A stretch of 36,760 nucleotides of DNA. It comes from a virus. The notes beneath the pieces were generated by a model. The model did no database searches and was not told the DNA's origin. It worked only from the letters and a program-made list of their open reading frames with translations. Below, piece after piece: positions 2,697-19,938 of the stretch. The DNA is taken from the IMG/VR virus record IMGVR_UViG_3300032236_000383, positions 1 to 36,760 of that record; one strand, given 5' to 3'. Within the stretch, counting starts at the first letter, position 1; the number at the start of each line of letters is the position of its first letter. The translations under genes were made by a program, and so were the position numbers.

Positions 2697-3635
2697 ATGT
2701 CTTTCAACGTCTCAACCGCGTTCGTCCAGCAGTACTCGACGAACGTCTCGATGCTCCTGCAGCAGCAGGGTTCGCGTCTCCGCAGTTCCGTCGTCAACAA
2801 CAAGTTCCAGGGCAAGGCTGCCTCGATGGTCGAGCAGTTTGGCTCGGTCTCACCGGTGCGCAACCAGTCGCGCCACAGCGATACCCCGCTGATCTCCACG
2901 CCGCAGGACAAGCGCTGGATCTACCCGAACGATTACGACTGGGCTGACCTCATCGACAACCAGGACAAACTGCGCATGCTGATCGATCCGACCAGCAGCT
3001 ACGCAATGGCTGGTGCCTGGGCGATGGGTCGCGCAATCGACGACGAAATCATTTCCGGCATCTTCAACTCGAACAACACCGGCGAAAACGGCACCTCGGC
3101 AACGGGCCTGCTGTCGGCTTACGGTTCGGGTTCGCAGGCTGTTGGCGTGACCGTCGGCGCTTCGGGCAACACTGGCCTGAACATCGCGAAGCTGCGTGCA
3201 GCCAAGCGTATCCTGCTGACCGCCGAAGTCGATGTCGACAATGATCCGCTGTACATGATCATCTCGGCCAAGCAGCACGATGACCTGCTGAACGAAGCAC
3301 AGGCGATCTCTCTCGACTACAACAGCAAGCCTGTTCTGGTCGACGGCAAGATCACCCAGTTCATGGGCTTCAACTTCATCCACTCGGAGCGCATTCCTGG
3401 CGCGGCCAACTTCAACACCGGCATCAACCCTGCTGTCACCGGCTACACCACCGGCTCGCAGTACATGGTTCCGTTCTATGCGAAGTCGGGCGTGTGCCTT
3501 GGTCTGTGGAACGACGTGACCACTTCGGTCGACCGCCGCGCTGACAAGCGCAACTCCTATCAGGTCTACGTCACCGGCACCTTTGGTGCTGCGCGTACCG
3601 AGGAGAAGAAGGTCGGTTTCATTACCTGCGTCTAA
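2697..3635 (+). CDS. Major capsid protein
   Basis: A 312-residue major head protein of the type seen in BPP-1-like podoviruses (HK97 fold with a rearranged topology in BPP-1). Supporting blocks are the Gln/Val-rich helical N-terminus beginning MSFNVSTAFVQQYSTNV, then PLISTPQDKRWIYPNDYDWA, DLIDNQDKLRMLIDPTSSYA and AMGRAIDDEIISGIF. These correspond to conserved parts of phage capsid proteins annotated in this group. The gene has the strongest ribosome site of the region (CAAGGGGGAAATACT before ATG), consistent with the need for hundreds of copies. It directly follows the scaffold module and precedes a probable decoration protein. Confidence 0.88.
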   Translation: MSFNVSTAFVQQYSTNVSMLLQQQGSRLRSSVVNNKFQGKAASMVEQFGSVSPVRNQSRHSDTPLISTPQDKRWIYPNDYDWADLIDNQDKLRMLIDPTSSYAMAGAWAMGRAIDDEIISGIFNSNNTGENGTSATGLLSAYGSGSQAVGVTVGASGNTGLNIAKLRAAKRILLTAEVDVDNDPLYMIISAKQHDDLLNEAQAISLDYNSKPVLVDGKITQFMGFNFIHSERIPGAANFNTGINPAVTGYTTGSQYMVPFYAKSGVCLGLWNDVTTSVDRRADKRNSYQVYVTGTFGAARTEEKKVGFITCV

Positions 3636-4675: not shown

Positions 4676-5275
4676 ATGGCCTCTGTCATTCAGGTCGCCA
4701 ACCGTGCGCTGACCAAGCTCGGCGCTGCGCGCATCATTTCGCTTGATGATGACAACAAGCAGGCGCGCGCGATCGCGAATTGCTTTGACGATCTGCGCGA
4801 CGACGAGCTGCGTGCGCACCGCTGGCAGTTTGCCATGAGGCGCATAGAGCTCGCTGCTTTGTCCGATGCGCCGGCGTTTGGCTATAACTACCAGTACGCA
4901 TTGCCGCCGGATTACCTGCGCATGGACATGGTCGATGATCGCTTTCCTTCGGCGATCATGGATAACTACATCGACACCGAATACCTGGAGTGGACGGTCG
5001 AGGGCAACCTGATCCTGACCGACATCGATGCGCCGCTGAAGCTGCGTTACATCGCCCAGATCACCGAGCCCAACAGCTGGGACTCAAACTTCCGCGAGGC
5101 CTTGGCGTCACGCATTGCGATGGAGATCTGCGAGGATCTCACGCAGTCCGACACCAAGAAGCAGGCCGCGGCCAACGATTACAAGCGCGCCATCACGCAG
5201 GCGATCCGCATCGGCTCGATCGAGAAGCCGTCGGTGATGCCGCCCGACAACCAGTGGATCATTTCGAGGATCTAA
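4676..5275 (+). CDS. Tail tubular protein A-like adaptor (T7 gp11-like)
   Basis: A 199-residue protein of the family that includes T7 gp11. In that phage a dodecameric ring links portal and nozzle. Typical blocks are VANRALTKLGAARIISLDDD, the DLRDDELRAHRWQFAMRR helix pair, then FGYNYQYALPPDYLRM and a late LKLRYIAQITEP strand pair. The C-terminus is a helical bundle with ALASRIAMEICEDLTQS. It has an ATAGGAGGC ribosome site and is followed one base later by the nozzle gene, the same gene pair as in T7. I consider this secure at the family level. Confidence 0.88.
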   Translation: MASVIQVANRALTKLGAARIISLDDDNKQARAIANCFDDLRDDELRAHRWQFAMRRIELAALSDAPAFGYNYQYALPPDYLRMDMVDDRFPSAIMDNYIDTEYLEWTVEGNLILTDIDAPLKLRYIAQITEPNSWDSNFREALASRIAMEICEDLTQSDTKKQAAANDYKRAITQAIRIGSIEKPSVMPPDNQWIISRI

Positions 5276-5276
5276 G

Positions 5277-7556
5277 ATGCCCAAGGCCTCCGCGATCCGC
5301 ACGAGCTTCAATGCCGGCGAATTGTCGCCGCTCATGGATGGGCGCGTCGACATCCAGAAATACGCCAATGGCTGCCGGCTCATGGAGAATTTCATCCCGT
5401 CGGTGCAGGGTCCTGCGGTTCGCCGCGGTGGCACCCGCTACGTCGCCGAGGTGAAGGCGAGCGCCAACCGCACCTGGCTGGCACGCTTTGAATTCTCGTC
5501 GACACAGAGCTTCGTGCTTGAATTCGGCGACACCTACATTCGGTTTTATTTCAACCGCGGCCAGCTGCTTTCGGGCGGCTCGCCTTACGAGATCGCCTCG
5601 CCCTATGCAGTCGCCGACCTGACCAACAGCGACGGCGGCTTCGCGCTCGACATGGTTCAGTCGGGCGATGTGATCTACATCGTTCACCCGAAATACCCGC
5701 CGCAAAAACTCTCGCGCCTGGGCAACACGAACTGGACGATCGCGCCCATCACGTTCCTCAACGGACCGTTCCAGGACGAGAACACCGACCGCACGAAGAC
5801 GATCTACGCATCGGCCACATCCGGCACGATCACGATCACAGCCTCGTCGGCTATGTTCACCTCGGCGATGGTGGGTCAGTACATTTACCTAGAGCCGGCT
5901 GACCTCTCCAACGTCAAGCCGTGGACGGCCGGCCAGGAATTCTCCAGCAATCCATACGGGGTTCTGCGCCGGTCCGAGGGCAACACATACACTTGCACGA
6001 CCAATGGCACGCCGAGCTCCGGCAAGGTTTGGCGCACAGGACCGGACAAGCCGATCCACACCTACGGCACGCAGGCCGATGGCGACGGCTCATCGATCTC
6101 TGGCACGACGGTCGAAAAGCAGGGCCTGGATTGGCTCTTCGTCGACAATGGCTACGGTTACGTCAAGATCACCGGCTATACGAACAGCACCACTGTCACG
6201 GCTGTCGTGCAAGGCAACAACCCGCTGCCTGGCGGCGTAATAGGATCGGGTAAGGCGACGTTCCGGTGGGCGCTGGGTGCGTTCTCCGCGACCAATGGCT
6301 ACCCGTCGCACGTCACGTTCTTCCGCGAGCGCCTGACCTTTGCGATGGGGCAGAAGCTCTATTTCTCGGTCGCGGCCGACTTTGAAAATTTCGCATCGAA
6401 GAACGACAGCGGCATCGTCTCTGCCGACATGGCGATCCAGGCGACGATTTCGTCCGACCAGGTCAACCAGGTGCAGTGGATGGTGCCGACGCAGGCGCTG
6501 CTGATTGGAACGTCTGGCGGTGAGTTCGCTTGTTCGGAGAACTCCACCAGCGAGGCGTTTGCGCCTGGCAACGTCAAGATCGAGCAGCAGACATCTGATG
6601 GCTCTCGTGCGGTCAACCCGGCGCGCGTGGGTTACTCGACGCTGTTTGTTCAGCGCTCGGGCAAGAAATTGAAGGAAGCAGCCTACAACTTCCAGCAGAA
6701 CGGCTACATCACCAACGACCTGACGGTGCTCGCCAACCATGTGACCGGCAACGGCATGGTGCAGACGGCCTGGCACCGCGAGCCCTATGTGGCTCTGTGG
6801 TCGGCACGAAGCGACGGCCAGCTGCTGGGCTTCACCTTCAACAAAGAGCAGGATGTGGTGGGATGGCACCGCCACATACTGGGCGGGAATGGCATCGTCG
6901 AGTCAGTGGCGGTCATCCCGTCGCCGGACGGTACGCAGGACGATCTTTGGATGATTGTCCGGCGTACCATCAACGGCTCAACGAAACGCTACGTCGAGTA
7001 TTTGTCGCGCGAGTACCAAACCGGTGATGCGCAGGCTGACTGCTTTTATGTCGACTCTGGTGCCACCTATTCCGGCACAGCCACGACCACGATCAGCGGC
7101 CTGGGCTACCTCGAAGGGCAGACGGTGCAGGTGCTGGCAAATGGTGCTGCGCATCCCGATCGTGTGGTGAGCTCGGGCTCGATCACGCTGCAGGTCTCGG
7201 CGACCAAGGTGCAGGTCGGCCTGGGCTACGTCTCGACGCTGCAGACCAATCGAATCGAAGCGGGCGCTGCTGACGGCACGGCCCAGGGCAAGATGAAACG
7301 CATCAACAAGTGCGTCATTCGCTTCCTGAACACGCTGGGCGCACAGGCTGGTCCCGATCTAAACAACCTCGACACGATCGAGTTTCGCTCGCCGTCGGCG
7401 CTGATGGACCAGGCCCCGCCGCTCTTCACCGGCGACAAGCTGATCGAGTGGCCGAGCGGATATGACTTTGATGGCTATGTGATGGTGCAGCAGCCGCAGC
7501 CTCTACCGATGACGGTGGTCGCCGTGATGCCGCAGCTGCACACGTTTGACAGATGA
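5277..7556 (+). CDS. Tail nozzle protein (T7 gp12-like, tail tubular protein B)
   Basis: A 759-residue protein similar in length and N-terminal sequence to podovirus nozzle proteins, which form a hexameric tube tip below the gp11-like ring. The opening blocks IRTSFNAGELSPLMDGRVD, the YANGCRLMENFIPSVQGPA stretch and VRRGGTRYVAEV are strongly characteristic. Further on, the FVLEFGDTYIRFYFNRGQLL and PSHVTFFRERLTFAMGQKLY blocks belong to the beta-propeller core. The ATG sits one base past the upstream stop (TAAGATG), so translation is probably coupled. The stop overlaps the next gene as ATGA. Confidence 0.9.
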   Translation: MPKASAIRTSFNAGELSPLMDGRVDIQKYANGCRLMENFIPSVQGPAVRRGGTRYVAEVKASANRTWLARFEFSSTQSFVLEFGDTYIRFYFNRGQLLSGGSPYEIASPYAVADLTNSDGGFALDMVQSGDVIYIVHPKYPPQKLSRLGNTNWTIAPITFLNGPFQDENTDRTKTIYASATSGTITITASSAMFTSAMVGQYIYLEPADLSNVKPWTAGQEFSSNPYGVLRRSEGNTYTCTTNGTPSSGKVWRTGPDKPIHTYGTQADGDGSSISGTTVEKQGLDWLFVDNGYGYVKITGYTNSTTVTAVVQGNNPLPGGVIGSGKATFRWALGAFSATNGYPSHVTFFRERLTFAMGQKLYFSVAADFENFASKNDSGIVSADMAIQATISSDQVNQVQWMVPTQALLIGTSGGEFACSENSTSEAFAPGNVKIEQQTSDGSRAVNPARVGYSTLFVQRSGKKLKEAAYNFQQNGYITNDLTVLANHVTGNGMVQTAWHREPYVALWSARSDGQLLGFTFNKEQDVVGWHRHILGGNGIVESVAVIPSPDGTQDDLWMIVRRTINGSTKRYVEYLSREYQTGDAQADCFYVDSGATYSGTATTTISGLGYLEGQTVQVLANGAAHPDRVVSSGSITLQVSATKVQVGLGYVSTLQTNRIEAGAADGTAQGKMKRINKCVIRFLNTLGAQAGPDLNNLDTIEFRSPSALMDQAPPLFTGDKLIEWPSGYDFDGYVMVQQPQPLPMTVVAVMPQLHTFDR

Positions 7557-7978
7557 TCGTCGTGCCTTTTGAGGCAGCACACCTGAAGCAGCTGGGCATC
7601 CAGCAAAGCCAGGAAGTGTTCAGGCCGATGATGCTGAAAGACGAGTACGGGATTAGTTTGGAAAAGGGCGGGCCAGCCTTTTCGGCGTTTGTAGACGGTG
7701 AGATAATCGCAGCACTGGGGATTATTCCTCAATGGGAGAACCGGGCGATGGCATGGGGTCTGATTGGCGGGAATGCTCGCCGGCACTTCGTGCCACTGAC
7801 CAAGGCGATCATGCGGTTCCTCGAGGTGACGCCACACCGGCGCGTCGAGACTGCAGTCGATAGCGATTTCCCCGAAGGGCATCGCTGGGCGCGGCTCCTG
7901 GGATTTGAGAACGAAGGCAGGATGCGCGCCTACACGCCCGACGGCCGCGACTGCAACCTTTATGCAAGGGTGAAATAA
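7553..7978 (+). CDS. GNAT-like internal virion protein (T7 gp13-like)
   Basis: A 141-residue protein with the layout of a GNAT acetyltransferase fold: a beta-alpha start (MIVVPFEAAHLKQLG), a central AFVDGEIIAALGIIP strand pair and a late GHRWARLLGFENEGRMRAYT segment. Podoviruses carry such a protein after the nozzle gene, where T7 has gp13, an internal-virion assembly factor. A canonical acetyl-CoA loop (Q/RxxGxG/A) is not obvious, so catalysis is doubtful and a structural or chaperone role is more likely. Overlaps with both neighbours (ATGA and TAATG) place it firmly in the operon. Confidence 0.75.
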   Translation: MIVVPFEAAHLKQLGIQQSQEVFRPMMLKDEYGISLEKGGPAFSAFVDGEIIAALGIIPQWENRAMAWGLIGGNARRHFVPLTKAIMRFLEVTPHRRVETAVDSDFPEGHRWARLLGFENEGRMRAYTPDGRDCNLYARVK

Positions 7979-8490
7979 TGGCTGCACTACCCGTTTTGAT
8001 GGCTGTGTCGTCTGCGGTCAGCGCGATCGGCGCGATCAACCAGGCGAATGCGCAGGCTGCGAGCTACAGGTCGCAGGCGCAGGCCCAGGAATACAACGCC
8101 ACGATCGAGCGCCAGAACGCGCAGGTGGCGAACGACCAGGCCAACGCGCAGGAAGAACAACAGCGCCGCAAATTTTCGATGATGCAGGGCCAGGCTTTGG
8201 CTGGTGCCGCGCAATCGGGTGCCGGCATGGACGGCTCCAACAAGGATGTCCTGGCGCAGAACGATCTCATGAACGAGCTCGACGCGCTGACGATCCGCTA
8301 CGAAGGCCAGCAGAAATCGCGCGGCCTCGAGGCGCAGGCACAGCTCGACCAGTACGGCGCAACGGTCAGCCGACAGAATGCCGACAACGCGCAAACCGCT
8401 GGTTTTTTCAATGCCGGAGCGAGCCTGTTGTCAGGCGCTGCGAATGGCTACGCCGCGTTCAAGGGCATCGGCCCGTGGAAAGGCGCATAA
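7978..8490 (+). CDS. Internal virion protein (T7 gp14-like)
   Basis: A 170-residue Ala/Gln-rich protein. It has a hydrophobic N-terminal segment (residues 2-20), a long central helical region full of Gln and Asn (AQAASYRSQAQAQEYNATIE and on), and a Gly/Ala-rich C-terminal hydrophobic segment. This matches gp14-type proteins, which are stored in the head, ejected first and form a channel in the outer membrane. It starts on the last base of the preceding stop codon. The class call rests on composition, size and position before two giant internal proteins; sequence similarity in this class is always low. Confidence 0.75.
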   Translation: MAALPVLMAVSSAVSAIGAINQANAQAASYRSQAQAQEYNATIERQNAQVANDQANAQEEQQRRKFSMMQGQALAGAAQSGAGMDGSNKDVLAQNDLMNELDALTIRYEGQQKSRGLEAQAQLDQYGATVSRQNADNAQTAGFFNAGASLLSGAANGYAAFKGIGPWKGA

Positions 8491-8493
8491 GAC

Positions 8494-11400
8494 ATGGCCG
8501 TCAAGATCCCGCAGTACGAAGAGCGCCTGACACCAAACGGTTTTGGCATGGTTCCGCAGGCACGCGGCGTCGAAATTTCCGGCGCTGTCGGCCAGGGGAT
8601 GCAACGTCTCGGGCAGGCCGGAGAGCAGCTGGCTGGCACGATGATCAGGATCGACCAGCAGCAGCAAGAAGCCAACGAGATGAGCCAGGTCGGTCTGAAG
8701 CTGTCGGAATTCAAGCAGCATCAGGAAGAGCAGTACCAGAAGCTCTCGACCTCATACCGGCCAGACAATGTGACCGATGCTGACGGCACGGTTCATCCTG
8801 CAGCTGAAGGCGACTACACCGGGTTTCACGGCCAGGTGGTCAAGCAGTTCCAGGCTGATCGCGATGCGTTCCTGAAAAACATTCAGAACCCTCGTGTGCG
8901 TCAGTACGCAGAGAACCATCTGCTGCAGCTGCAGGACGCATACTCAAGTTCCTCGCTGCAGTGGGAAGGCAAGCAGACGATCGCCAAGCGCGACAACGAG
9001 CTGATCGCCACGACCGAAAACTACGGCAAGGATCTGATGAAGAACCTGTCGCCGGAGCAGTTCGCGTTTGCCAACGCAGCTGTCGGCGGCATGATCGCCA
9101 ACAACGACATGTTGACGCCCGACCAGAAGGTCGATCGCCTGCGTAAGGCCAAGGCTGCGCTGTTGAATTACGCGCTGCAAGGCGTGAACGAGCGCACGCC
9201 GCAAGACCTCGTCGATGCGCTGCATGAGGCAGTCGGCAAAGACACAACGGCTGCTGCGCCGGCAGCAATGCCAGGTCCAGATACCAGCACGGTGAAAGGC
9301 CTGATCACGCCAGGCAACATCGACCTCGCCAACCGACCGCAGGTCAAGAACAAGGACGGCTCGATTTCGACGGTGAGCTCGTTCTCGGTAAACATCGAAG
9401 GCAAGGAAGTCTTGCTGACGCCGATCACCGAAGACGGCAAGGTGCTGACCGAGCAGCAGGCGATCGAGAAGTACAAGAAGGACGGCAAAAACCTTGGCAT
9501 TTTCGACACGCCTGAAGACGCATCCGCATACGCACAGCAGCTGCACGAGTACCAGGACAAGTTCTACAACGCCAAGAAGCCAGCCGAAAGCGGTGCTGTG
9601 CAGTCTGCTGGAATTCCGATCTCCAGCGATCTGCCGATGGGCATGCGCAACCGCAACCCTGGCAACATCAAGTACGCTCGCCAGGCTGATGCCACGAAGT
9701 CCGACTCGAAAGATCAAGGCGACGCACAGGCGCGCTATGAGACTGACGAAATGGGTTTCGCGGCCATGTATCGCTTGGCGCTGCGCAAATTTGATGGCGG
9801 CAAGAACACGGTCGACAGCCTGATTGCCGGCAATGGCGGCTGGACACCTGGCAACCATGAAGCCGCGGCCAGTGTGGCGCGCAAGATGGGCATTGGCCCA
9901 AACGACACAGTCGATCTGCGCGACCCGGCAACGCTCGAAAAGTTCGGCCGGGCTCTGGTTTCGCAGGAGCAGGGGCCAGGTGCCAAGCATTACCCCGACC
10001 AGGTCTACGGCGCGATCGCCAAGGATGTGCTGGCCGGCAAACCTGTCACGAAGGCGACGAGCTACAGCGCAACCTCAAGCGATGGCGCATTGCCTGGAGT
10101 GACCGTCACAGCATCGAAGTCTCAAGCCAATCCGTTCATTCGCGACCTTGTCAGCCAGCTGCCACCCGAGCAGATCATCCCGACGCTAAACAAGGCCGAG
10201 GCAGAAGTGCATCGGCAGATGGGTGTGGCTCGGTCTTCTCTGGAGCCCGTTCTCAACAATCACCTGGTAATGGCAGCCAACGGTGATGCGCCGCCGCAGC
10301 CGCTGACCGAAGATCAATTCGTGGGCGCTTACGGCATGGTCGATGGACCGCGTCGCTATGAAGGCTACCGCGAGGCCATGAGCTTGGCTCCTGACGTGCA
10401 GGCCGCCAAAACCCTGCCGGTCGACAAGCAGGCTGCGTTTCTGGAAGCGCGCCGGCCGCAACCGAGCGATCCGCTCTACGCGATCAAAGCCGACAAGTAC
10501 CAGAAGCTCGCACAGGCGATCGATGCGCAGAACAAGGTGCGCGCCGACGATCCGGTGGCATGGGCCGGTGCGAACAAGTTCGCCGACGTGCAGCCGCTCA
10601 ACTTCAACGACCGCGCAGCATTTGCAGCCGAGCTGACCAAACGCCAGGGTGTGGCATCGACAATGTCGACCATGTTCGGAACCAAGCCTGCGCTGCTGAC
10701 GAAGGCCGAGCAAGCGACGCTGTCGGCCGGCTTCAACAACATGACGACCCCACAGAAGCTGGATTACCTCAAGACCATGCGCGGTGCGGTGAGCGGAGAC
10801 GCCTATCGCGGCCTGGTCCAGGCGATCGCGCCTGACAGCCCGGTGACGGCCGTGGCCGGTGGCATCATGGCTGAGACGAACAACAACACAATCGCCGGCG
10901 GCATGATTGGATCTGACAAGGTCTATCGCCCCGACGTGGTCGCAGGACTGATCCTTGAGGGCGAGCAGCTCCTCAACCCGAACAAGGCCGCCAAGGCACA
11001 GGACGGTACCGGCAAGATGTTGCCGATGCCGCCCGACAAAGACATGCGCCAGGCGTTCGCTGATCAGATGGGCAATTCCTTTGCGGGCAATGCGACGCGC
11101 GCCGACATCACGTTCCAAGCCGTGCGCGCTTACTACGCCGGCAAATCCGCACGCGATGGCGATGTGTCCGGCAATTTCGATTCCGGCCGCATGAAGGAAG
11201 CGATCGAAGCTGTCACGGGCGGCGCGACTGAAATCAACGGCAAGGGCTCGGTGCTGCGTCCCTGGGGGATGTCTGAGCCTTACTTCAAGGACCAGGCGAA
11301 GAAGAAGTTCGACCAGGCGATCGCTGCCAATGGCTACACCAAAGGCATGTTCGATCAATGGGGCGCTTTCGGTCTCGAGATGATGGGTGATCCCGCCGGC

Positions 11401-11628
11401 AATGGCCGTGACCTGTACCTGGTCAAGAACGGCAACAGCTACCTGTTCGGCAAGGACGGCAGGCCGATGGTGCTCGATTTGACGCAAGCTCCGTCGATGA
11501 TGAGCCAGATCCCGACCAGCAACGAAGCCGATCGCCAGCAAGGTCAGCCGGCGGCACCGCTGCCGCCAGTGACCACCAAGCCGGAAAAGACTGACAAGAT
11601 GACCACGACCAAGCCAAAAGCAAAATGA
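8494..11628 (+). CDS. Internal virion protein with muramidase-like domain
   Basis: A 1044-residue member of the T7 gp15/gp16-like ejection proteins. Residues 1-250 are helical and Gln-rich. Residues about 274-360 form a domain known from other phage ejection proteins (GNIDLANRPQVKN start, LGIFDTPEDASAYAQQLHEY end). Residues about 382-515 begin MRNRNPGNIKYAR and continue through DEMGFAAMYR and SQEQGP, a pattern of phage lysozyme-like virion hydrolases that cut peptidoglycan during entry. Candidate catalytic acids are E416 or E419, not certain. The rest is helical with an LTKAEQATLSAGFNNM block; the last 50 residues are Pro/Lys/Thr-rich and disordered. The stop overlaps the next start (ATGA). 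Confidence 0.82.
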   Translation: MAVKIPQYEERLTPNGFGMVPQARGVEISGAVGQGMQRLGQAGEQLAGTMIRIDQQQQEANEMSQVGLKLSEFKQHQEEQYQKLSTSYRPDNVTDADGTVHPAAEGDYTGFHGQVVKQFQADRDAFLKNIQNPRVRQYAENHLLQLQDAYSSSSLQWEGKQTIAKRDNELIATTENYGKDLMKNLSPEQFAFANAAVGGMIANNDMLTPDQKVDRLRKAKAALLNYALQGVNERTPQDLVDALHEAVGKDTTAAAPAAMPGPDTSTVKGLITPGNIDLANRPQVKNKDGSISTVSSFSVNIEGKEVLLTPITEDGKVLTEQQAIEKYKKDGKNLGIFDTPEDASAYAQQLHEYQDKFYNAKKPAESGAVQSAGIPISSDLPMGMRNRNPGNIKYARQADATKSDSKDQGDAQARYETDEMGFAAMYRLALRKFDGGKNTVDSLIAGNGGWTPGNHEAAASVARKMGIGPNDTVDLRDPATLEKFGRALVSQEQGPGAKHYPDQVYGAIAKDVLAGKPVTKATSYSATSSDGALPGVTVTASKSQANPFIRDLVSQLPPEQIIPTLNKAEAEVHRQMGVARSSLEPVLNNHLVMAANGDAPPQPLTEDQFVGAYGMVDGPRRYEGYREAMSLAPDVQAAKTLPVDKQAAFLEARRPQPSDPLYAIKADKYQKLAQAIDAQNKVRADDPVAWAGANKFADVQPLNFNDRAAFAAELTKRQGVASTMSTMFGTKPALLTKAEQATLSAGFNNMTTPQKLDYLKTMRGAVSGDAYRGLVQAIAPDSPVTAVAGGIMAETNNNTIAGGMIGSDKVYRPDVVAGLILEGEQLLNPNKAAKAQDGTGKMLPMPPDKDMRQAFADQMGNSFAGNATRADITFQAVRAYYAGKSARDGDVSGNFDSGRMKEAIEAVTGGATEINGKGSVLRPWGMSEPYFKDQAKKKFDQAIAANGYTKGMFDQWGAFGLEMMGDPAGNGRDLYLVKNGNSYLFGKDGRPMVLDLTQAPSMMSQIPTSNEADRQQGQPAAPLPPVTTKPEKTDKMTTTKPKAK

Positions 11629-14600
11629 GCGTCTTCGACATCGATCAGACCGCTGCGGTCAATTCATACGAGAACGCGCTCAGCAGCCCGATCTGGGAGA
11701 GCGACCTCAAACCGTCCTGGTATTCCGGTGCATGGAAAGCGCCGTTTACCGGTCTTGCTTCAACGGTCAACGACGCGGCACTGCTCCTGGGCGATGCCAC
11801 CACCCCGATGCTGCGCATGGCTGCGCGTCCCGTCGATCAGCTCTTCGGCACAAAGACCGAAGATTGGCTGAACGAGCAGCAGCAGATCGCTGTCGACAAC
11901 ATTAGCAACTGGTCGCCAGATCCGCGCACGACAGGCTGGCTGGGCATGGCTGGGCATGGCCTGATCAACGTCATCCCTGAAGCCATGCTGGGCGGCCCAG
12001 AAACGGCGGCAGCGTTGCAAGGCTACAAAGGATTTCGTCGATCGGTTGCCGAAGGCATTGATCCGGCCACGGCGTTGGGCGTCGGTTCTATTGAAGGCGT
12101 AGCAACCTATGCCGGCATGAAGCTGCCGATGACGTTTGCAGCTGGCGCGCCGCTTTATGCCAACCTCGGCCTGGCCGTCGGCACCAACCTCGCAGTGGGC
12201 GCGGCAACGCGCGGTGGGATCGGTGGTTGGCTCGAGGCCCGCGGCTATTCGGACATGGCCTCGCAGTACCGCGTGCTCGACCAGGAAGCGATGATGGTCG
12301 ACACGATCATGGGCCTGGGCTTTGGTGCCTATGGTCACTACGTCCACGGCAGCGCACCTGAGACCCGACCCCTGGGCGAGATTGCGCCGTCCGAGCTCGA
12401 CGCAGCGCTGGCGGCCAACAACCATTTGCACGTCGAGGTCGACACCTTGCCGGGCGTCCCGACCGATCCGGCCGCACGCCAGGCACACGTCGAGGCTGTG
12501 AACAAAGCGATCGAGGATCTGCTGGCCGGCCGTGATGTCACCGTCAATGAGGCTGTGACGCAAGCGTCGTTTGAAGAGAAGCAGCAGACGCCGTTTCGTA
12601 CCAATGCCGATGCCACGATCCGCGAGCACCTCGGTTCTGATTGGGAGCGTGTCCAGGAGGAGCTGCGCTCGCGCGGTCTGCCGGACGATCCGAACCTGTA
12701 CAACATCGATCAGCGCTCGCCTGTGCGCTTCACCGACAACGTCAGGGGCGCGATCAAGGAGTGGGAAAAGACGGGCGACACCGAAGCGCTGCTGATGCGC
12801 TTGAAGAGCCTGAATGGCGACTTGGAAGAACGCGCTGTCGCCAACGCCGGAAAGCGCTTTGCCGATCGCGAGCGCGGTGAGCTGTGGGTGCGCGAGCGCC
12901 TGATGCGTGCCGAGCGTCACGGCGACATTTCGCCTGAACAGCACGCGCTGGCGAAGTGGCTGATCGACAAGAACCCGGCGATCGCCGACGAGCTTGCGAT
13001 CTCGCTGCGCGGCAGTGGCCGGATGTCCGGCGAAGCTGGCAGCTACAACCCGGCAGAGCGCCTGGTCACGCTGATCAAAGGCGCTGGCGATGCCATGACG
13101 GGAGCTCACGAGTTCCTGCATCACTCCGAACGCATGATGCCTGAAGAGGTGCGCAAGGGCGTGCGCGAGGCCTGGATCAACAGCCTGGAGCGGCTCCAGC
13201 GCACGGCAACCGAGACGCAAAACCATCCGCTGATGCAGGCGATCGATGATGCCCTGCGCGCGGCCGCCGGCGACCGTGAAGCATTCAAGCTGATCGCCTC
13301 GCAAATTGCCGATGGCACGCTGCCGAAAGACTTCTACCAATACGTCAACCCGTCCGAGTTCTGGGCCGTTAATGCCGCACGCCTGGTGGCGCAGCGTGCC
13401 GGAGCCAAGACCTGGATCGGCAAAGCAAAGCAGTGGCTTGCCGAGCTCGTTGAGAAAATCAAATCGGTGTTTGGATTGTCCGACCAGGACGCCATCATCA
13501 AAGGCCTCGACGCGGTCCTGAAATCCGACGGCGAGATCTACGGCAAGATGATAGGCCAGGGGGACTTCTTTCCCGATGTCACCGCTGGCAAGCCTGGCGT
13601 GGAAAAACCAGGCGTCGGAGTCGAGGACAAGAACGTCAACGGCTTTGAGCCTGCGCTGCGCGTCAAGGTCCCGCTCGGCAAGATCGCGCTGCCTGAAAAG
13701 CCGCTGGTCTTGACCGGCACCAACATGAAGAACGCTGGAAAGCAGCTCGCCGGCATCGATGACGCGCTGGCAAAGTTCCCGAATGCCGACAAGTCGCCAC
13801 TCGAATGGTCGCGCATGATGGCCTATGCGATGGCGACCGACGACGTGCCGATCCCGCCCTATCGCTTCCTGAAGGAGATCAACTCCGACGGCGCGGTGCG
13901 CAAGCTCGAGACGCTGACGCCAGGTCAGATTGCTGATGCCGACCACGGCTTTGAGAATGCGCGTCTGTTCCGCGAGGCCTACACAAGCGGCGAGCTCGAT
14001 GTCGAAACCACCGGCAAGCTGTTCATGTGGTCGTTCCTGTCGCGCGGCGTCAGCCCCTACACGCAGGAAGGCCTGTTCATCGACGCCTATCCAGGGATCG
14101 GCGAGTGGTTGAAAGTCGCCGCCGAAGGCAGCTGGGACGAAAGCCGCAAGGCCGCCTTTGACCTGGGCAGCAAGGCCGAGCGCGAGAAGCTCGCCGACCT
14201 GATCCTCCAGGGCGAGATCGATGGCTGGAACGATGCCAAGAAAAAAGCAGAGAAAGAGGGCAAGGAGTTCAACAAGCCGGAGCCGACCCGCATCGAGTGG
14301 GACGAGAATGCCGACGGCACAGTGAACCTGACCTACAGCGAGTGGGCGCGCACCGCGGCACCGAAGGGCTCCGGCCAGCCGGGCTCGGGCGCAACGCACA
14401 ACCTGAACGCCTTCGGCAATCTCTTCCTGGCGAAGATGAGCGAGAAGGATGCCGACGGCGTCTCGAAGCTGCAGCGCATGCACGAGATGATGTCGGACCC
14501 GAACATGACCGGCCAGGCGATCCGTCGCTGGTTCATCGCCAATACCGAGGGCGTGGGCATCGACAACAAGGTCGTGTCGTTCACGCTCCTGGTCGCCGGC

Positions 14601-15491
14601 TTCCCTGATGTGATGGTGCTCGATCGCGTGCAGATCCGTCAGCTGTGGGACGACGGCCGCTTTGAAGGACGCAACCTCTATGACGGCCGCAAGGTCAACA
14701 ACAAGGTCGTGCCTGGCACGTCGTTGGCCGAGATCACCTACGGCGCACGCGGCCTTTTGATCTATGAGGCTGTCGAGCGCGCACTCGCCAAACGGGTCGA
14801 GAATATGTACACGGCGCTGGGCCGCCCACACGACGCCAGCATCGGCCGCTATCACTGGGAGACCTGGGTAGCAGACAGCCAGCAGGAAGCCAGCCACGGC
14901 ACGCTGGACGCGATCCTGCACGATGCCAAGGGCAACCCCGACATGATCTCCGAGGTGACCGCCAAGGAGGGCGAGTACGGTGCCTATCAGTACGGCGCGC
15001 GCTACGGCCGCACAGCTGCCGGCGAGCCTTATTTCCTGTACAAAGTAGGGGAGGGGCAGGAGCGTCGTTACACAGTTGAAGGTTTCCGCGAGTTTATGGA
15101 TGCGGTAAAATCAACAAAGAACGGCGTCGTGCCGGCCAAATTCAAAGTGACGGAGGCAGGCAATGCCCCTTGGTACGAAAGACCTGAAGTCAACCAGCAG
15201 CGCCTCGACGAGCTCGCCGCAAAATACGCAGTCCCCAGCGAGACAGAAGGAGCGGGAGCTGTTCGCACGCCTGGCGAAGGTCAAGCAGTATCCGATCGCG
15301 CCGGACGAGGAGCCGACCCCTACTCAGCAGAAACCATTATCGCCAATCGACCTGACCTGACGGTCGCCAATGAGAGCGGCGAGCTCGTCCCGGCAGGGCG
15401 CGCGCTTGCCCAGGCTGATGCGGAACTCGCAACAGCAGAGCACGAATCACAACAGTTTGACGTAGCCGCGGCCTGCGCACTGAGGGGATGA
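11625..15491 (+). CDS. Giant internal virion protein with zincin and glycosylase-like regions
   Basis: A 1288-residue protein, likely packed in the head and ejected with DNA. The first 230 residues are rich in Gly and Ala, with amphipathic segments suited to membrane passage. H495-E-F-L-H499-H500 is an HExxH zinc-protease motif in a helical, charged region. Residues about 760-1100 form a conserved block I have seen in other phage ejection or polyvalent proteins. Within it, GVGIDNKVVSF (K982) is followed 18 residues later by D1000 in VMVLDRVQIRQLW, resembling the Lys/Asp pair of helix-hairpin-helix DNA glycosylases. The last 55 residues (ETIIANRPDL to AACALRG) are a tail shared by such proteins. 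Overlaps and spacing place it in the ejection operon. Enzymatic roles are inferred. Confidence 0.8.
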   Translation: MSVFDIDQTAAVNSYENALSSPIWESDLKPSWYSGAWKAPFTGLASTVNDAALLLGDATTPMLRMAARPVDQLFGTKTEDWLNEQQQIAVDNISNWSPDPRTTGWLGMAGHGLINVIPEAMLGGPETAAALQGYKGFRRSVAEGIDPATALGVGSIEGVATYAGMKLPMTFAAGAPLYANLGLAVGTNLAVGAATRGGIGGWLEARGYSDMASQYRVLDQEAMMVDTIMGLGFGAYGHYVHGSAPETRPLGEIAPSELDAALAANNHLHVEVDTLPGVPTDPAARQAHVEAVNKAIEDLLAGRDVTVNEAVTQASFEEKQQTPFRTNADATIREHLGSDWERVQEELRSRGLPDDPNLYNIDQRSPVRFTDNVRGAIKEWEKTGDTEALLMRLKSLNGDLEERAVANAGKRFADRERGELWVRERLMRAERHGDISPEQHALAKWLIDKNPAIADELAISLRGSGRMSGEAGSYNPAERLVTLIKGAGDAMTGAHEFLHHSERMMPEEVRKGVREAWINSLERLQRTATETQNHPLMQAIDDALRAAAGDREAFKLIASQIADGTLPKDFYQYVNPSEFWAVNAARLVAQRAGAKTWIGKAKQWLAELVEKIKSVFGLSDQDAIIKGLDAVLKSDGEIYGKMIGQGDFFPDVTAGKPGVEKPGVGVEDKNVNGFEPALRVKVPLGKIALPEKPLVLTGTNMKNAGKQLAGIDDALAKFPNADKSPLEWSRMMAYAMATDDVPIPPYRFLKEINSDGAVRKLETLTPGQIADADHGFENARLFREAYTSGELDVETTGKLFMWSFLSRGVSPYTQEGLFIDAYPGIGEWLKVAAEGSWDESRKAAFDLGSKAEREKLADLILQGEIDGWNDAKKKAEKEGKEFNKPEPTRIEWDENADGTVNLTYSEWARTAAPKGSGQPGSGATHNLNAFGNLFLAKMSEKDADGVSKLQRMHEMMSDPNMTGQAIRRWFIANTEGVGIDNKVVSFTLLVAGFPDVMVLDRVQIRQLWDDGRFEGRNLYDGRKVNNKVVPGTSLAEITYGARGLLIYEAVERALAKRVENMYTALGRPHDASIGRYHWETWVADSQQEASHGTLDAILHDAKGNPDMISEVTAKEGEYGAYQYGARYGRTAAGEPYFLYKVGEGQERRYTVEGFREFMDAVKSTKNGVVPAKFKVTEAGNAPWYERPEVNQQRLDELAAKYAVPSETEGAGAVRTPGEGQAVSDRAGRGADPYSAETIIANRPDLTVANESGELVPAGRALAQADAELATAEHESQQFDVAAACALRG

Positions 15492-15492
15492 C

Positions 15493-18018
15493 ATGAGAGA
15501 CAAGTGCATCGCAGCGGTAGAGCAGGCCATCGGTCGACCGATCACGGTGGCCGAGGCCAACGGCATCGAGCAGCGCATCGTCAAGTCCATGCGCTTCATC
15601 GCCGGCAAAGACCCGGCTGCATTCTCCCGCATGACCGCGGCCGATCGCCTGAAAGCTGCAGCGCAGTTCGCCGCCCAGGATTTGGTGGCCGAAGCAGCGT
15701 TGAAGCTCAAGCGCGTGCAGCTCGCCATTGAGACGCATGACCGGCTGCAGGGTTTTATCGATGACCAGGTGAATGCCGGTATGGACCGGTTCGATGCGCT
15801 GAAGCGCACGCTGGTTTTCGTCGCCGACGGCAAGAGCAATTTCATGTCGGCTGAGAGCCGCACAAACGCCATTTCGGCCAATGCCCGCCGCCAGCTGATC
15901 GACACGTTCGAGGCTGTGGATCCGCGTTTCTGGGGAATGTTCGAGTCGAACGAAGGCATCAGGCTGCTGACGAAGGCGATCTTCGGTGAGCAGACCGGCA
16001 GCCACGAGGCCGACAAAGGCGCGGCCGCCTGGCACGAGGTCGCTGACCAGCTGCGCGAGCAGTTCAACAATGCAGGCGGCAAGATCGGCAAGCTCGAGAC
16101 CTGGTCGGTGCCGCAGCATCACAGCCAGGCGAAAGTCGCCAAGGCCGGCCGCGACACCTGGGTGGCCGAGGTTTTCCCGCTCTTGAACCGCGACAAGTAC
16201 CTGCGCGACGACGGCACGAAGATGTCCGACACCGAGGTCGTCGACTTTCTGCGCAATGCCTGGGTGACGCTGGCGACCGGCGGCATCAACAAGATGGAAC
16301 CCGGCCAGCGCATGAGCGGCATGCTGGCAAACCGCAATTCTGAAAGCCGGTCGATCCATTTCAAGGATGCCGACAGCTACTTGAAATATCAGTCGCAGTA
16401 CGGCGAAAAATCGCTGTGGGGTGTGATCACCGGCCACGTCCAGGGCATGTCGCAAGAGATTGCCATGCTGGAGACCTACGGCCCGAACCCCGACAACGCC
16501 TTCCGCGCGCTGCTCGACAAGCAGCTGCACGAGAAAGCGATCGCCGATCCGGCAAAGGCCGCCAAGGCCGAGAAGGAAGCGCAGCGTCTGTCAGCGCTTT
16601 TCGACTACACCTCCGGCAAAACGCAGCCGGTGGTCAACGAGACCCTCGCCAAGACATTCGACACGCTGCGCAACTGGATGGTGTCGTCTCGCCTGGGATC
16701 GGCCGTCATCACGGCGCTGGCCGACGAGGCGACGGTTCACCTGACCGCGAACGTCAACCGCCTGCCTGAGCTGCAGCTGATCGCCAACGAGCTGTCTGCC
16801 ATGAACCCGGCCAACCGCACTGAGGAAAACCTGGCGCACCGCGCAGGCTTGGCGCTCGACACCATGATCGGCCATCTCAATCGCTGGGGCCAGGACAACC
16901 TCGGCCCGACCTTCTCGTCGAAGATGGCGCAGACGGTCATGCGCGCGTCTGGCCTTGAGGCGCTCGACGGTGCGCGCCGGCGTGCGTTTGGCGTGACGAT
17001 GATGTCGGCGCTGGGCGAGATCTCCGGCAAATACAGCAAGCTCGCTGACATCGATCCGCACGACTACCGCATCCTGCTGTCCAAGGGCATCACCGAGGAA
17101 AACTTCGCGGTCTGGAAGGCAGCCGAGCTCGAGCAATGGGGCGCAGGCAATGGCGTGCTGACGCCTGAAGCGATCATGCGCATCCCTGATGCTGACCTGG
17201 TTGTGGCCGGCATGCCCGACCCTGCCGCGGCCAAGCGCGAGGCGGTGCTGCGCCTCTTGGGCGTCGTGCTCGAGGAAACCGACATGGCCGTGATCCGGCC
17301 TGGCGCATCCGACAAGTTCATGACCGGCGGCGGCTTTGAGCGCGGCACTTGGAAGGGTGAGCTCGCCAGGTCGTTCTTCCTGTTCAAGGCGTTCCCGCTG
17401 TCGATGATCGCGCGCCACTGGATGCGCGGCATGAACATGGAAACGTCCGGCGGCAAGGCGCTTTACATCGCGAGCTTGGTGGCCGGCACGACCGTCCTGG
17501 GCGCGGTGGCGCAGACGATCAACGACTTCCTGCAAGGCAAAGACCCGCGCAATTACAACCCGTTCCAGGGCGAGCACGGCGGCAAGAACTGGCTGGCGGC
17601 TTTCCTGAAGGGCGGCTCGCTTGGGATTTACGGCGACTTCCTGTTTTCCGGCGCGACGCAGACCAGCCACAACGGCGTGCTCGGCGCGATGATGGGACCG
17701 CTCGCCGGCTTTACCGAAGAAGCATTCAACCTGACGCAAGGCAACGTCGTGCAGATGATGCAGGGCAAGGACACACACTTCGGTGCCGAGGCGACAAGGT
17801 TTATCAAAGGAAATCTACCGGGCGCGAGCCTCTGGTATGCAAAAGCAGCTCTGGATCATCTCGTGTTTCACCAGCTGCAGGAGTATTTTTCGCCGGGCTA
17901 TCTTGCTACAATGCAGCGCAGAGCTCAGAAGGAGTTCGGGCAGACTTATTTCTGGCGACCCGGTACTGGCCTCGAAGGCATTCGCGAGCCCGATTTTGCC
18001 AAAGCTATTGGGGAATAA
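15493..18018 (+). CDS. Large internal virion protein (ejection protein)
   Basis: An 841-residue, mostly helical protein starting two bases after the preceding stop, with a GAGGGGATGAC leader. It has no signal peptide. The C-terminal third holds hydrophobic segments, notably ALYIASLVAGTTVLGAVAQT (about 656-675) flanked by SFFLFKAFPLSMIARHWMRG. Further on, SLGIYGDFLFSGATQTSHNG and a terminal FGQTYFWRPGTGLEGI block are familiar from C-termini of large podovirus internal or polyvalent proteins. The likely role is to join the transient channel across the cell envelope, as T7 gp16 does, but it has no lysozyme domain of its own. That domain is in the 1044-residue protein. Structural class is fairly sure, exact role not. 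Confidence 0.78.
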   Translation: MRDKCIAAVEQAIGRPITVAEANGIEQRIVKSMRFIAGKDPAAFSRMTAADRLKAAAQFAAQDLVAEAALKLKRVQLAIETHDRLQGFIDDQVNAGMDRFDALKRTLVFVADGKSNFMSAESRTNAISANARRQLIDTFEAVDPRFWGMFESNEGIRLLTKAIFGEQTGSHEADKGAAAWHEVADQLREQFNNAGGKIGKLETWSVPQHHSQAKVAKAGRDTWVAEVFPLLNRDKYLRDDGTKMSDTEVVDFLRNAWVTLATGGINKMEPGQRMSGMLANRNSESRSIHFKDADSYLKYQSQYGEKSLWGVITGHVQGMSQEIAMLETYGPNPDNAFRALLDKQLHEKAIADPAKAAKAEKEAQRLSALFDYTSGKTQPVVNETLAKTFDTLRNWMVSSRLGSAVITALADEATVHLTANVNRLPELQLIANELSAMNPANRTEENLAHRAGLALDTMIGHLNRWGQDNLGPTFSSKMAQTVMRASGLEALDGARRRAFGVTMMSALGEISGKYSKLADIDPHDYRILLSKGITEENFAVWKAAELEQWGAGNGVLTPEAIMRIPDADLVVAGMPDPAAAKREAVLRLLGVVLEETDMAVIRPGASDKFMTGGGFERGTWKGELARSFFLFKAFPLSMIARHWMRGMNMETSGGKALYIASLVAGTTVLGAVAQTINDFLQGKDPRNYNPFQGEHGGKNWLAAFLKGGSLGIYGDFLFSGATQTSHNGVLGAMMGPLAGFTEEAFNLTQGNVVQMMQGKDTHFGAEATRFIKGNLPGASLWYAKAALDHLVFHQLQEYFSPGYLATMQRRAQKEFGQTYFWRPGTGLEGIREPDFAKAIGE

Positions 18019-18021
18019 ACC

Positions 18022-19938
18022 ATGACCGTATCATCCCAAACGTCGCGGGTCAGCTATTCGGGCAACGGCTCGACGACCGCGTTTTCCGTCCCGTTCTACT
18101 TTCTCGCCACCAGCCACCTGAAGGTCATCCTGCGTGCCTCTGACGGCACCGAGACCACAATGGTGTTGAACACCGATTACACAGTCAGCGGGGCAGGGGT
18201 CTCGGCTGGCGGCACAGTGACGATGACATCGGCACCGGCATCGAGCGTTACAGTCGTGATCACGCGCAACGTGCCACTGACCCAGGATGTCGACTACCAG
18301 CCGAACGATCCTTTCCCGGCTCAGACCCACGAGCAGGCGCTCGACAAGCTGACGATGGAAGCGCAGCAGCTCAACGAGGCCGTCGGCCGCTCGATTAAGC
18401 TGTCGACCTCCAACACCATGAGTTCGACTGAGTTTACAGTCGGAGCGACGGACCGCGCCAACAAGGTGCTGAGTTTTGATGCGGCCGGCGAACTGTCGGT
18501 GACCCAGGAGCTCGGCACCTACCAGGGCAGTTGGACCTCGGGCAAGTCTTACAAGCAGCGCGACATCGTCAAGGACACGTCGAACGCGAACATCTACATC
18601 TGCCTGACCGCGCACACAGCGAGCGGCTCGCAACCGATCTCGACCAACACCGACAGCGCAAAATGGGCGCTCCTGGTTGACGCCGCCACCGCGACTTCGG
18701 CATCGTCGTCTGCGTCTACGTCTGCAACGAATGCTGCGAATTCCGCATCAGCTGCTTCGAGTTCCGCATCATCTGCCTCGACCTCCGCATCAAACGCTTC
18801 GACCAGCGCCAGCAATGCATCGACCTCGGCGACAAATGCTGCTTCAAGCGCGTCGTCTGCCTCGAGCTCGGCCTCGTCGGCGTCGTCGAGCGCGACGGCT
18901 GCGAGCGCATCAGCTGCAGCTGCAGCGGCTTCAGCGGCATCTGGCCTGTACCGGCAGGTGCTGGACAAGAGCGCCAACTACACGGTCCTGGTGGCTGACC
19001 AGGGAACCCTGTTCCGCGCCAACACGGGCAGCGGCGCAATCACTTTCACGCTGCCTCAGATCTCGACGGTCACCGACGGCTTCAAGGTCTCGATCGTCAA
19101 ATGGACGAGCGATTCAAACCAAGTCAGCATTACCAGGTCAGGCAGCGACACGATCAACGGTGGCACCACCGTCACAATTGGATCGCAGTATTCTCAGGTC
19201 ATTCTGGTCGCTGACTTTGAGACGAACACCTGGTTTGCATCGCAGTCTGGTCTTGGCGCAACAAACGTCAACGTCGATCGCTTCAGTGGTAACGCGTCGA
19301 CGACGGCTTTCACGCTGACCGCAGCACCAGGTGCGCAGAACAATGCCGACATTTTCATCAGCGGCGTGTACCAGCAAAAGAACAGCTACACGATCAGTGG
19401 CACAACGCTGACGTTCAGCGCTGCACCGCCAACCGGCACGAACAATATCGAGGTGGTCTATAGCACGCCGTTGCCGATCGGCACGCCGAGCGATGGTACG
19501 GTCACCGCGGCCAAAATGGCGTCTGGTGCCGCCGTCGGAAACCTCGGCTACACGCCGGCCAACAAAGCAGGCGACACCTTTACCGGTGCGGTGACGGCCA
19601 CATCGCTGGCAGACAGCACAGGCGACGTGCGATCGATTCCGCAGAACGCGCAGACAGCGGCTTACACGCTGGTCGCAGGCGACAACGGCAAGCACATCTC
19701 GATTACCACCGGCGGCGTGACAGTTCCATCGGGCGTGTTCTCTGCTGGTCAGGTCGTGACGATCTACAACAACTCGGCATCCAACCAGACGATTACGCAG
19801 GGAAGCGGCCTGACCTTGCAGTGGGCCGGTCAAACATCATCGACGACAGGAAACAGAACGCTTGGCCTTTATGGCATGGCGACAGTCTTATTCATCTCAT
19901 CCAGCGTCGCAGTCATCACCGGTGCGGGGCTGACATAA
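18022..19938 (+). CDS. Tail fibre protein
   Basis: A 638-residue fibre. Residues 1-140 (SYSGNGSTTAFSVPFYFL through QTHEQALDKLTMEAQQLNEA) are the tail-attachment domain used by many podovirus fibres and tailspikes. Residues about 224-308 are Ala/Ser-rich heptad-like repeats, probably a trimeric helical shaft. The distal part has beta modules, including a second copy of the GNASTTAFTLTAAPGAQNN type and an LGYTPANKAGDTFTGAVTA repeat common in fibres. The C-terminal domain is beta-rich and ends ITGAGLT. It begins three bases after the ejection-protein stop and is followed two bases later by the adhesin gene, so these act together in host attachment. Confidence 0.88.
   Translation: MTVSSQTSRVSYSGNGSTTAFSVPFYFLATSHLKVILRASDGTETTMVLNTDYTVSGAGVSAGGTVTMTSAPASSVTVVITRNVPLTQDVDYQPNDPFPAQTHEQALDKLTMEAQQLNEAVGRSIKLSTSNTMSSTEFTVGATDRANKVLSFDAAGELSVTQELGTYQGSWTSGKSYKQRDIVKDTSNANIYICLTAHTASGSQPISTNTDSAKWALLVDAATATSASSSASTSATNAANSASAASSSASSASTSASNASTSASNASTSATNAASSASSASSSASSASSSATAASASAAAAAASAASGLYRQVLDKSANYTVLVADQGTLFRANTGSGAITFTLPQISTVTDGFKVSIVKWTSDSNQVSITRSGSDTINGGTTVTIGSQYSQVILVADFETNTWFASQSGLGATNVNVDRFSGNASTTAFTLTAAPGAQNNADIFISGVYQQKNSYTISGTTLTFSAAPPTGTNNIEVVYSTPLPIGTPSDGTVTAAKMASGAAVGNLGYTPANKAGDTFTGAVTATSLADSTGDVRSIPQNAQTAAYTLVAGDNGKHISITTGGVTVPSGVFSAGQVVTIYNNSASNQTITQGSGLTLQWAGQTSSTTGNRTLGLYGMATVLFISSSVAVITGAGLT
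18691..18945 (+). repeat. Imperfect tandem repeats encoding Ala/Ser fibre shaft
   Basis: Short degenerate units such as TCGGCATCG and ACGTCTGCA recur for about 250 bases and encode SASSA, SATNA and SASNA units. This is a recombination-prone shaft region where length could vary between relatives. Confidence 0.8.

Follow-up and report, generated by a model that had tools for sequence, protein, structure and literature searches.

In helix-hairpin-helix (HhH)-GPD enzymes, a catalytic aspartate directly precedes the helix that follows the HhH, and in the bifunctional members a catalytic lysine begins the second HhH helix. The Ogg2 8-oxoguanine (8-oxoG) DNA glycosylase/lyases are stand-alone enzymes of about 210 amino acids (aa) with a strictly conserved C-terminal lysine, the carboxylate of which recognizes 8-oxoG (PMC3397491). 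Glycosylases are now known as part of the arsenal of bacteria against phages, as exemplified by Brig1 (PMC11078745). Peptidases, ADP-ribosyltransferases, methylases, and polymerases have already been described as cargo of polyvalent and ejection proteins. Here, we analyzed a 36,760-nucleotide stretch of viral DNA (IMG/VR record IMGVR_UViG_3300032236_000383, positions 1 to 36,760), referred to as the window, which encodes a multidomain virion-module protein of 1288 aa. A first-pass annotation had noticed in this protein the segment GVGIDNKVVSFTLLVAG, directly followed by FPDVMVLDRVQIRQLW, had compared it with the active site of HhH-GPD glycosylases, and had proposed that the protein is ejected from the virion. 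Our results support the assignment of residues 670 to 1205 to a divergent HhH-GPD domain whose fold is closest to Ogg2. This uncultured phage probably injects the 1288-aa protein along with its DNA, and the resemblance of the domain to DNA repair enzymes that remove damaged bases suggests that certain phages supply an enzyme of their own for base excision or base handling upon entry into the cell.

Both segments are present in the 1288-aa open reading frame (ORF) as described, with K982 and D1000 separated by 18 residues. A single copy of the pattern K-x2-S-x6-G-x7-D[RK] is present in the protein; the pattern arose in 0.2% of shuffles of the protein and was absent from the other ORFs of related loci (584,080 residues). 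Relatives were collected with the glycosylase-like segment as the query and with peptide patterns lacking K982 and lacking D1000, which yielded 86 related stretches from contigs of viruses; of these, 80 were retained. The 400-base segment originally singled out proved to belong to a larger, strongly conserved unit of approximately 535 aa, spanning about residues 670 to 1205 and found in more than 80 contigs of uncultured phages. When the homologues were aligned, K982 and D1000 were invariant in 60 of 60 distinct nonredundant domains, as were G978, D980, N981, S985, G992, D995, R1001, and Q1003 and, farther downstream, E1048, E1051, R1067, R1075, H1077, W1078, and W1081. Since the pattern is rare and both residues are invariant in relatives that were found independently of them, the wording around K982 and D1000 is far from chance; a chance match was rejected on these two grounds and on the agreement of the sequence and fold searches.

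To predict the fold, AlphaFold2 was supplied with a 54-sequence alignment and returned a confident model of the window's domain (predicted local distance difference test [pLDDT] score of 92 and predicted template modeling score of 0.90). A Foldseek search of this model against 350,542 PDB chains ranked TmaOgg2 (3n0u) first and second, with probabilities of 0.99 and 0.98, template modeling (TM) scores by target of 0.64 and 0.63, and E values of 0.18 and 0.26; among the other matches listed, DrEndoIII-3 reached a probability of 0.18 and the rest 0.1 or less. A separate model (pLDDT score of 88) was made for the core of L077, the shortest of the divergent relatives, which lacks the insertion listed in Table 1 and is 40 to 47% identical to most of the family. 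Its first three matches were MjaOgg2 (3knt), SsoOgg2 (3fhg), and TmaOgg2 (3n0u), all at a probability of 1.00 and with TM scores of 0.69 by target and 0.52 to 0.53 by query, followed by DrEndoIII-3 in fourth place (probability of 0.93), mouse OGG1 in sixth place, and other EndoIII and AGOG structures at lower probability. The proposed HhH-GPD/Ogg2-like fold was thus supported, and neither of the findings that the first-pass annotation had named as refuting it, a confident structure of unrelated fold or homologues without conserved K982 or D1000, was encountered.

The predicted positions of the key residues agree with this assignment. In the model, helices flank the GVGIDN hairpin, K982 opens the second HhH helix (residues 981 to 990), where the lysine of the bifunctional HhH-GPD members stands, and D1000 directly precedes the post-HhH helix (residues 1001 to 1008), as does the catalytic aspartate of these enzymes. 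It had also been suggested that the upstream peptide FLSRGVSPYTQEGLF is the first core helix of the family. In the model, however, this peptide is not a single helix but covers the last part of a helix, the loop after it, and the beginning of a second helix; the layout is that of the LLSAQ-T region of the HhH-GPD family, and the modeled helix-loop-helix as a whole probably corresponds to the first core helices of that family.

Profile searches pointed to the same enzymes. A hidden Markov model (HMM) profile of 54 members, searched against 177,635 PDB sequences, matched only the MjaOgg2 entries 3fhf and 3knt (E value of 0.15), and a profile of the core placed MjaOgg2 first (E value of 0.041). 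The alignment set K982 on the catalytic lysine of MjaOgg2, which is changed to glutamine in 3knt, and D1000 on the aspartate of AIIDRHILREL. The Ogg-HhH family PF22175, matched by 6 of the 54 members (best E value of 0.0028), was the only Pfam family matched by more than one member, and the NCBIfam N-glycosylase/DNA lyase model was likewise matched by 6 of 54 (best E value of 0.014). A single-sequence search of the PDB returned only chance death-domain matches.

Table 1. Features of the 1288-aa protein and its gene in the window
Feature	Residues	Window position	Strand	Evidence or remark
1288-aa multidomain virion-module protein (P0001)	1-1288	11625..15491	+	Positional, partial sequence counterpart of phiV10 gp19/epsilon15 gp16
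N-terminal part common to phiV10 gp19 and PHROG 1145	69-318	11829..12578	+	34% identity, E 4e-38; phrog_1145, E 1.8e-60
Zincin-like metallopeptidase region	~400-650	12822..13574	+	HEFLH at 495-499; conserved E578 in NPSEFWA
Ogg2-like domain with family-specific additions	670-1205	13632..15239	+	Conservation, AlphaFold2, Foldseek
Helix-loop-helix with FLSRGVSPYTQEGLF; likely first core helices	793-833	14001..14123	+	Model helices 793-804 and 811-833
FLSRGVSPYTQEGLF	804-818	14034-14078	+	
Insertion (~60 residues)	About 843-903	14151..14333	+	In only 6/60 relatives
Helix-hairpin-helix	Helix 963-973, hairpin GEGVGIDN, helix 981-990	14511..14600	+	Model; alignment with MjaOgg2 HhH
GVGIDNKVVSFTLLVAG	976-992	14550-14600	+	
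K982, counterpart of Ogg2 catalytic lysine	982	14568..14570	+	Invariant 60/60; aligned to Ogg2 Lys
FPDVMVLDRVQIRQLW	993-1008	14601-14648	+	Directly after GVGIDNKVVSFTLLVAG
D1000, counterpart of Ogg2 catalytic aspartate	1000	14622..14624	+	Invariant 60/60; just N-terminal to helix 1001-1008
Invariant motif Y1062...GR..S.GRYHWETWV..S.QE..H1091; may form the base pocket or a second portion of the active site	1062-1091	14808..14897	+	Conservation
C-terminal end common to phiV10 gp19	1218-1288	15276..15488	+	36% identity, E 2e-4

The genomic setting is that of a podovirus ejection protein. The window follows podovirus gene order, with the capsid gene (2697-3635), tail and nozzle genes (4676-7556), and internal virion protein genes (7553-8490) followed by the genes for a 1044-aa protein, for the 1288-aa protein, for a virion structural protein of 841 aa (15493-18015), and for tail fibers. 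Across 155 loci, nozzle and internal-virion genes, where present, were always upstream and a tail-fiber gene always downstream. The epsilon15 gp16-like proteins have been treated as ejection proteins by synteny (PMC8954989), and one review assigned the epsilon15 core to gp17 instead (PMC5850374). The protein of phiV10 that is annotated as similar to epsilon15 gp16, gp19 (600 aa), has the same neighbors and homologous ends, and it matches only residues 69 to 318 and 1218 to 1288 of the window protein; we therefore read the latter as an epsilon15 gp16-type virion-module protein with a central cargo block. Judged by synteny, the proposed ejection of the 1288-aa protein from the virion is well supported. 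The ~900 residues in its middle have the appearance of a cargo that can be exchanged.

The cargo includes, besides the Ogg2-like domain, a region resembling the zincin-like peptidase that forms the hub of polyvalent proteins and has been proposed to process them (PMC5512222). Its HExxH and NPSEFWA motifs are conserved in relatives, and it shares approximately 42 to 44% identity with segments of Erwinia phage proteins that carry the annotation DarB-like antirestriction, transglycosylase, or DNA methylase. Within the window, AHEFLHH is encoded at 13104-13124 and NPSEFWAVNA downstream at 13353-13376. Several of the longer relatives scanned contain ART-PolyVal, LPD22, ddrB-ParB, methyltransferase, or inorganic pyrophosphatase domains beside the Ogg2-like domain, which itself matched none of the Pfam LPD families. 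At three loci, the ORFs with the domain exceed 2000 aa and include a homologue of the 841-aa virion protein, forming giant fused virion proteins. An antisense open frame of 1053 aa (window positions 11760-14921, minus strand) spans the 1288-aa gene and is most likely a by-product of codon usage. Of the neighboring products, the 1044-aa protein (8494-11628) has PHROG matches to head protein and endolysin families and is probably an ejection protein with a cell wall-cutting domain, and the tail fiber encoded at 18022-19938 has a T7-type N terminus and a weak match to the carbohydrate-binding family CBM_5_12.

A second, alignment-based scan retrieved 213 relatives, and in the genomes of bacteria and archaea a single contig was retrieved, assigned to an Opitutae metagenome-assembled genome; the patterns used in both scans covered DNKVVS, so the conservation of K982 among these hits is partly built in. 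The Opitutae contig (L082), which encodes at 5736-10337 a 1534-aa chain of inorganic pyrophosphatase, methyltransferase, and Ogg2-like domains, is possibly a viral contig binned with its host. Searches by tblastn yielded no relatives of the domain, either from 50,697 records of isolated phages, for which three different queries were used, or from 72,556 plasmids, for which one was used; the best matches listed fell in other parts of the proteins. The family is so far one of uncultured phages, with the addition of two "uncultured Caudovirales phage" proteins in BFVD. The ratio of nonsynonymous to synonymous substitution rates between the window and five close relatives was 0.25 to 0.28 for the domain and 0.37 to 0.50 for the N-terminal and peptidase parts; by this measure, the domain changes at a lower rate than do the other parts of the protein. 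A search for cellular Ogg2 in Verrucomicrobiota found none. Plasmid-borne Ogg2-like genes of Pseudomonas, Rhizobium, Agrobacterium, Neorhizobium, and Synechocystis (L176-L181) adjoin genes for 7-cyano-7-deazaguanine synthase (QueC-like) as well as TIR-domain or DNA adenine methylase genes, an arrangement that resembles defence islands.

Several observations weigh against an Ogg2-like glycosylase. No search statistic was decisive by itself: the Foldseek E values lay between 0.016, the best, and 0.2 or so, probably because the domain is far larger than Ogg2 and divergent, and those of HMMER lay between 0.04 and 0.15. The window's own domain matched no Pfam, NCBIfam, or PHROGs family, including PF22175, whose cut-off it did not reach. 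In a full-length profile-profile comparison with the Ogg2, HhH-GPD, and phage amino-acid:DNA transferase (ADDT) families, for which genuine full-length Ogg2 relatives were collected and reversed sequences served as controls, the hhalign score of the domain with Ogg2 was 22.7, near the background of 17 to 19 given by the reversed controls; Ogg2 and HhH-GPD scored 46.5 with each other. Homology to Ogg2 is not proven by such sequence comparison alone. Ogg2 was, however, the only one of the three profiles to rise slightly above the background, and its best local match was the HhH-to-Asp segment in the correct register. Since the fold E values are weak and the profile-profile scores are near background, the case for the fold rests on the agreement of independent searches; we find it convincing because two unrelated methods picked the same small family from the whole PDB. 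The domain is also about 330 aa larger than Ogg2, and its alignment contains no equivalent of the C-terminal lysine of Ogg2. Because the domain is internal, with at least 80 residues after it, a C-terminal 8-oxoG-sensing lysine cannot be present. Ogg2 proper with 8-oxoG specificity was rejected for this reason, and 8-oxoG is therefore not to be assumed as the substrate; a domain that works in the manner of an HhH-GPD glycosylase/lyase is supported, but its membership in Ogg2 is not.

Moreover, the lysine and aspartate do not prove glycosylase chemistry, because ADDTs share the fold and a similar GFK..D stretch. The fold could thus serve to modify bases, as in ADDT (PF18724) or the helical domain of 5-hydroxymethyldeoxyuridine kinase, with K982 or D1000 recruited to a different reaction. 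Consistent with this, the transferase PUGT (8z2n) was weakly matched in both PDB fold searches, the ADDT of phage M6 retains a GFK..D...PVDFD stretch, and neither the extra ~330 residues nor the invariant RYHWETW motif is a feature of Ogg2. Nevertheless, we regard base modification as unlikely, given a fold rank far below that of Ogg2 (probability of 0.08 to 0.12 compared with 0.99 to 1.00), an hhalign score with ADDT at background, and no thymidine-hypermodification gene recognized among the window proteins scanned; such enzymes, furthermore, modify phage DNA that has just been synthesized inside the cell and do not operate from the virion. Alternatively, the HhH-GPD domain could be devoid of catalysis or serve solely to bind DNA, as a scaffold that keeps the DNA in place within the core or helps to draw it into the cell. 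Such a role would suit an ejection protein encoded beside the DNA entry machinery, and HhH motifs are frequent in nonenzymatic DNA binding. However, in 59 aligned relatives K982, D1000, H953, R967, R968, D980, N981, and Q1003, as well as E1048, E1051, H1077, W1078, W1081, and Q1087, are invariant or nearly so. Such invariance of polar residues is unusual for a passive scaffold, and the domain is optional and moves between unrelated proteins, which leaves this explanation rather improbable. The same low likelihood applies to a toxin-like effector, an injected glycosylase/lyase that would break host chromosomal, plasmid, or prophage DNA at a base that the phage lacks or protects. Many conflict effectors are indeed combined in polyvalent proteins (PMC5512222), and glycosylases such as Brig1 already serve as weapons of bacteria (PMC11078745), but the window proteins scanned gave no sign that the phage modifies its own DNA, and few copies of an ejection protein enter the cell per infection.

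On balance, we favor, as reasonably probable, a divergent HhH-GPD domain closest to Ogg2 that is packaged as cargo, injected, and used to excise bases and nick DNA in an early clearing of bases. The analysis shows the domain, its conservation, its fold match, the equivalence of its residues, the synteny, and its position as cargo; we infer from here an injected DNA glycosylase/apurinic-apyrimidinic lyase, with its packaging, entry, catalysis, substrate, and role as proposals. Together with the zincin-like peptidase, the Ogg2-like domain would make up an enzymatic cargo block inserted into a podovirus ejection protein of the epsilon15 gp16 type, whose conserved ends flank it. This protein would be a component of the virion and would leave it before or together with the genome, and the peptidase may then free the Ogg2-like domain. 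The domain would bind DNA through its hairpin and flip a particular base out of the DNA into a pocket, part of which would be the invariant RYHWETW segment; K982 would act as the Schiff-base nucleophile, activated by D1000, so that the base would be excised and the strand nicked. The likeliest use would be the early clearing of damaged or marked bases on incoming phage DNA or on host-marked DNA. Such base cleaning at entry would fit a small number of injected copies, and it would fit the finding that no self-modification genes were recognized among the window proteins scanned.

We found no base-excision enzyme among polyvalent or ejection proteins in the searchable literature and nothing relevant on internal virion glycosylases, and the main text of the polyvalent-protein paper makes no mention of a glycosylase (PMC5512222). 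The HhH-GPD fold and polyvalent/ejection proteins are both known, but we did not find their combination described. The first-pass reading proved right in motif, register, and fold and points at an undescribed domain family that is self-contained, strongly conserved, and abundant in metagenomic phages while absent from the isolates searched. That this family is widespread and provides an Ogg2-fold glycosylase/lyase as exchangeable ejection or polyvalent cargo, the target of which upon DNA entry would be a particular lesion or modified base, in repair or counter-defence, is a broader proposal to which we give slightly less than even credence. If true, a glycosylase injected by phages would mirror Brig1-like defence on the phage side or would amount to a repair kit that arrives with the genome.

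Compared with described systems, the 1288-aa protein has the makeup of the polyvalent proteins of Iyer et al. (2017, PMC5512222), which are likewise large multidomain products of phage virion modules and combine a zincin-like peptidase with effector domains that can be exchanged, and it differs from phiV10 gp19 in having both the peptidase and the Ogg2-like domain. The endonuclease III/HhH-GPD family (PF00730) belongs to the same fold class and, according to the first-pass annotation, has the same 18-residue Lys-Asp spacing, but the hhalign comparison stayed at background, PF00730 was not matched, and no iron-sulfur cluster motif was noticed in the domain; membership in the endonuclease III family was rejected for lack of a PF00730 or profile match. 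The phage amino-acid:DNA transferases (PF18724; PUGT, 8z2n) have a lysine and an aspartate near the places equivalent to K982 and D1000, and the domain did not match PF18724. Ogg2 (MjaOgg2 3fhf/3knt, SsoOgg2 3fhg, and TmaOgg2 3n0u; PF22175; PRK01229) gave the best fold and PDB sequence matches. Its KEASHFLRN...DRH signature is not found in the domain, which shares only K..S..L...G..DV...DR...R.L. Whereas Ogg2 stands alone, the domain is embedded in a multidomain ejection protein, has in its model extra N-terminal, insert, and C-terminal beta elements, carries a hairpin two residues longer (GVGIDNK instead of GIGYK), and has the invariant RYHWETW motif where Ogg2 has LDLxxWY. Yet both have K-x2-S-x6-G-x2-D-V-x3-L/I-D-R-x3-R-x-L with identical spacing from the lysine, and from this lysine to the end of the next helix, the domain and MjaOgg2 are identical at 10 of 29 residues.

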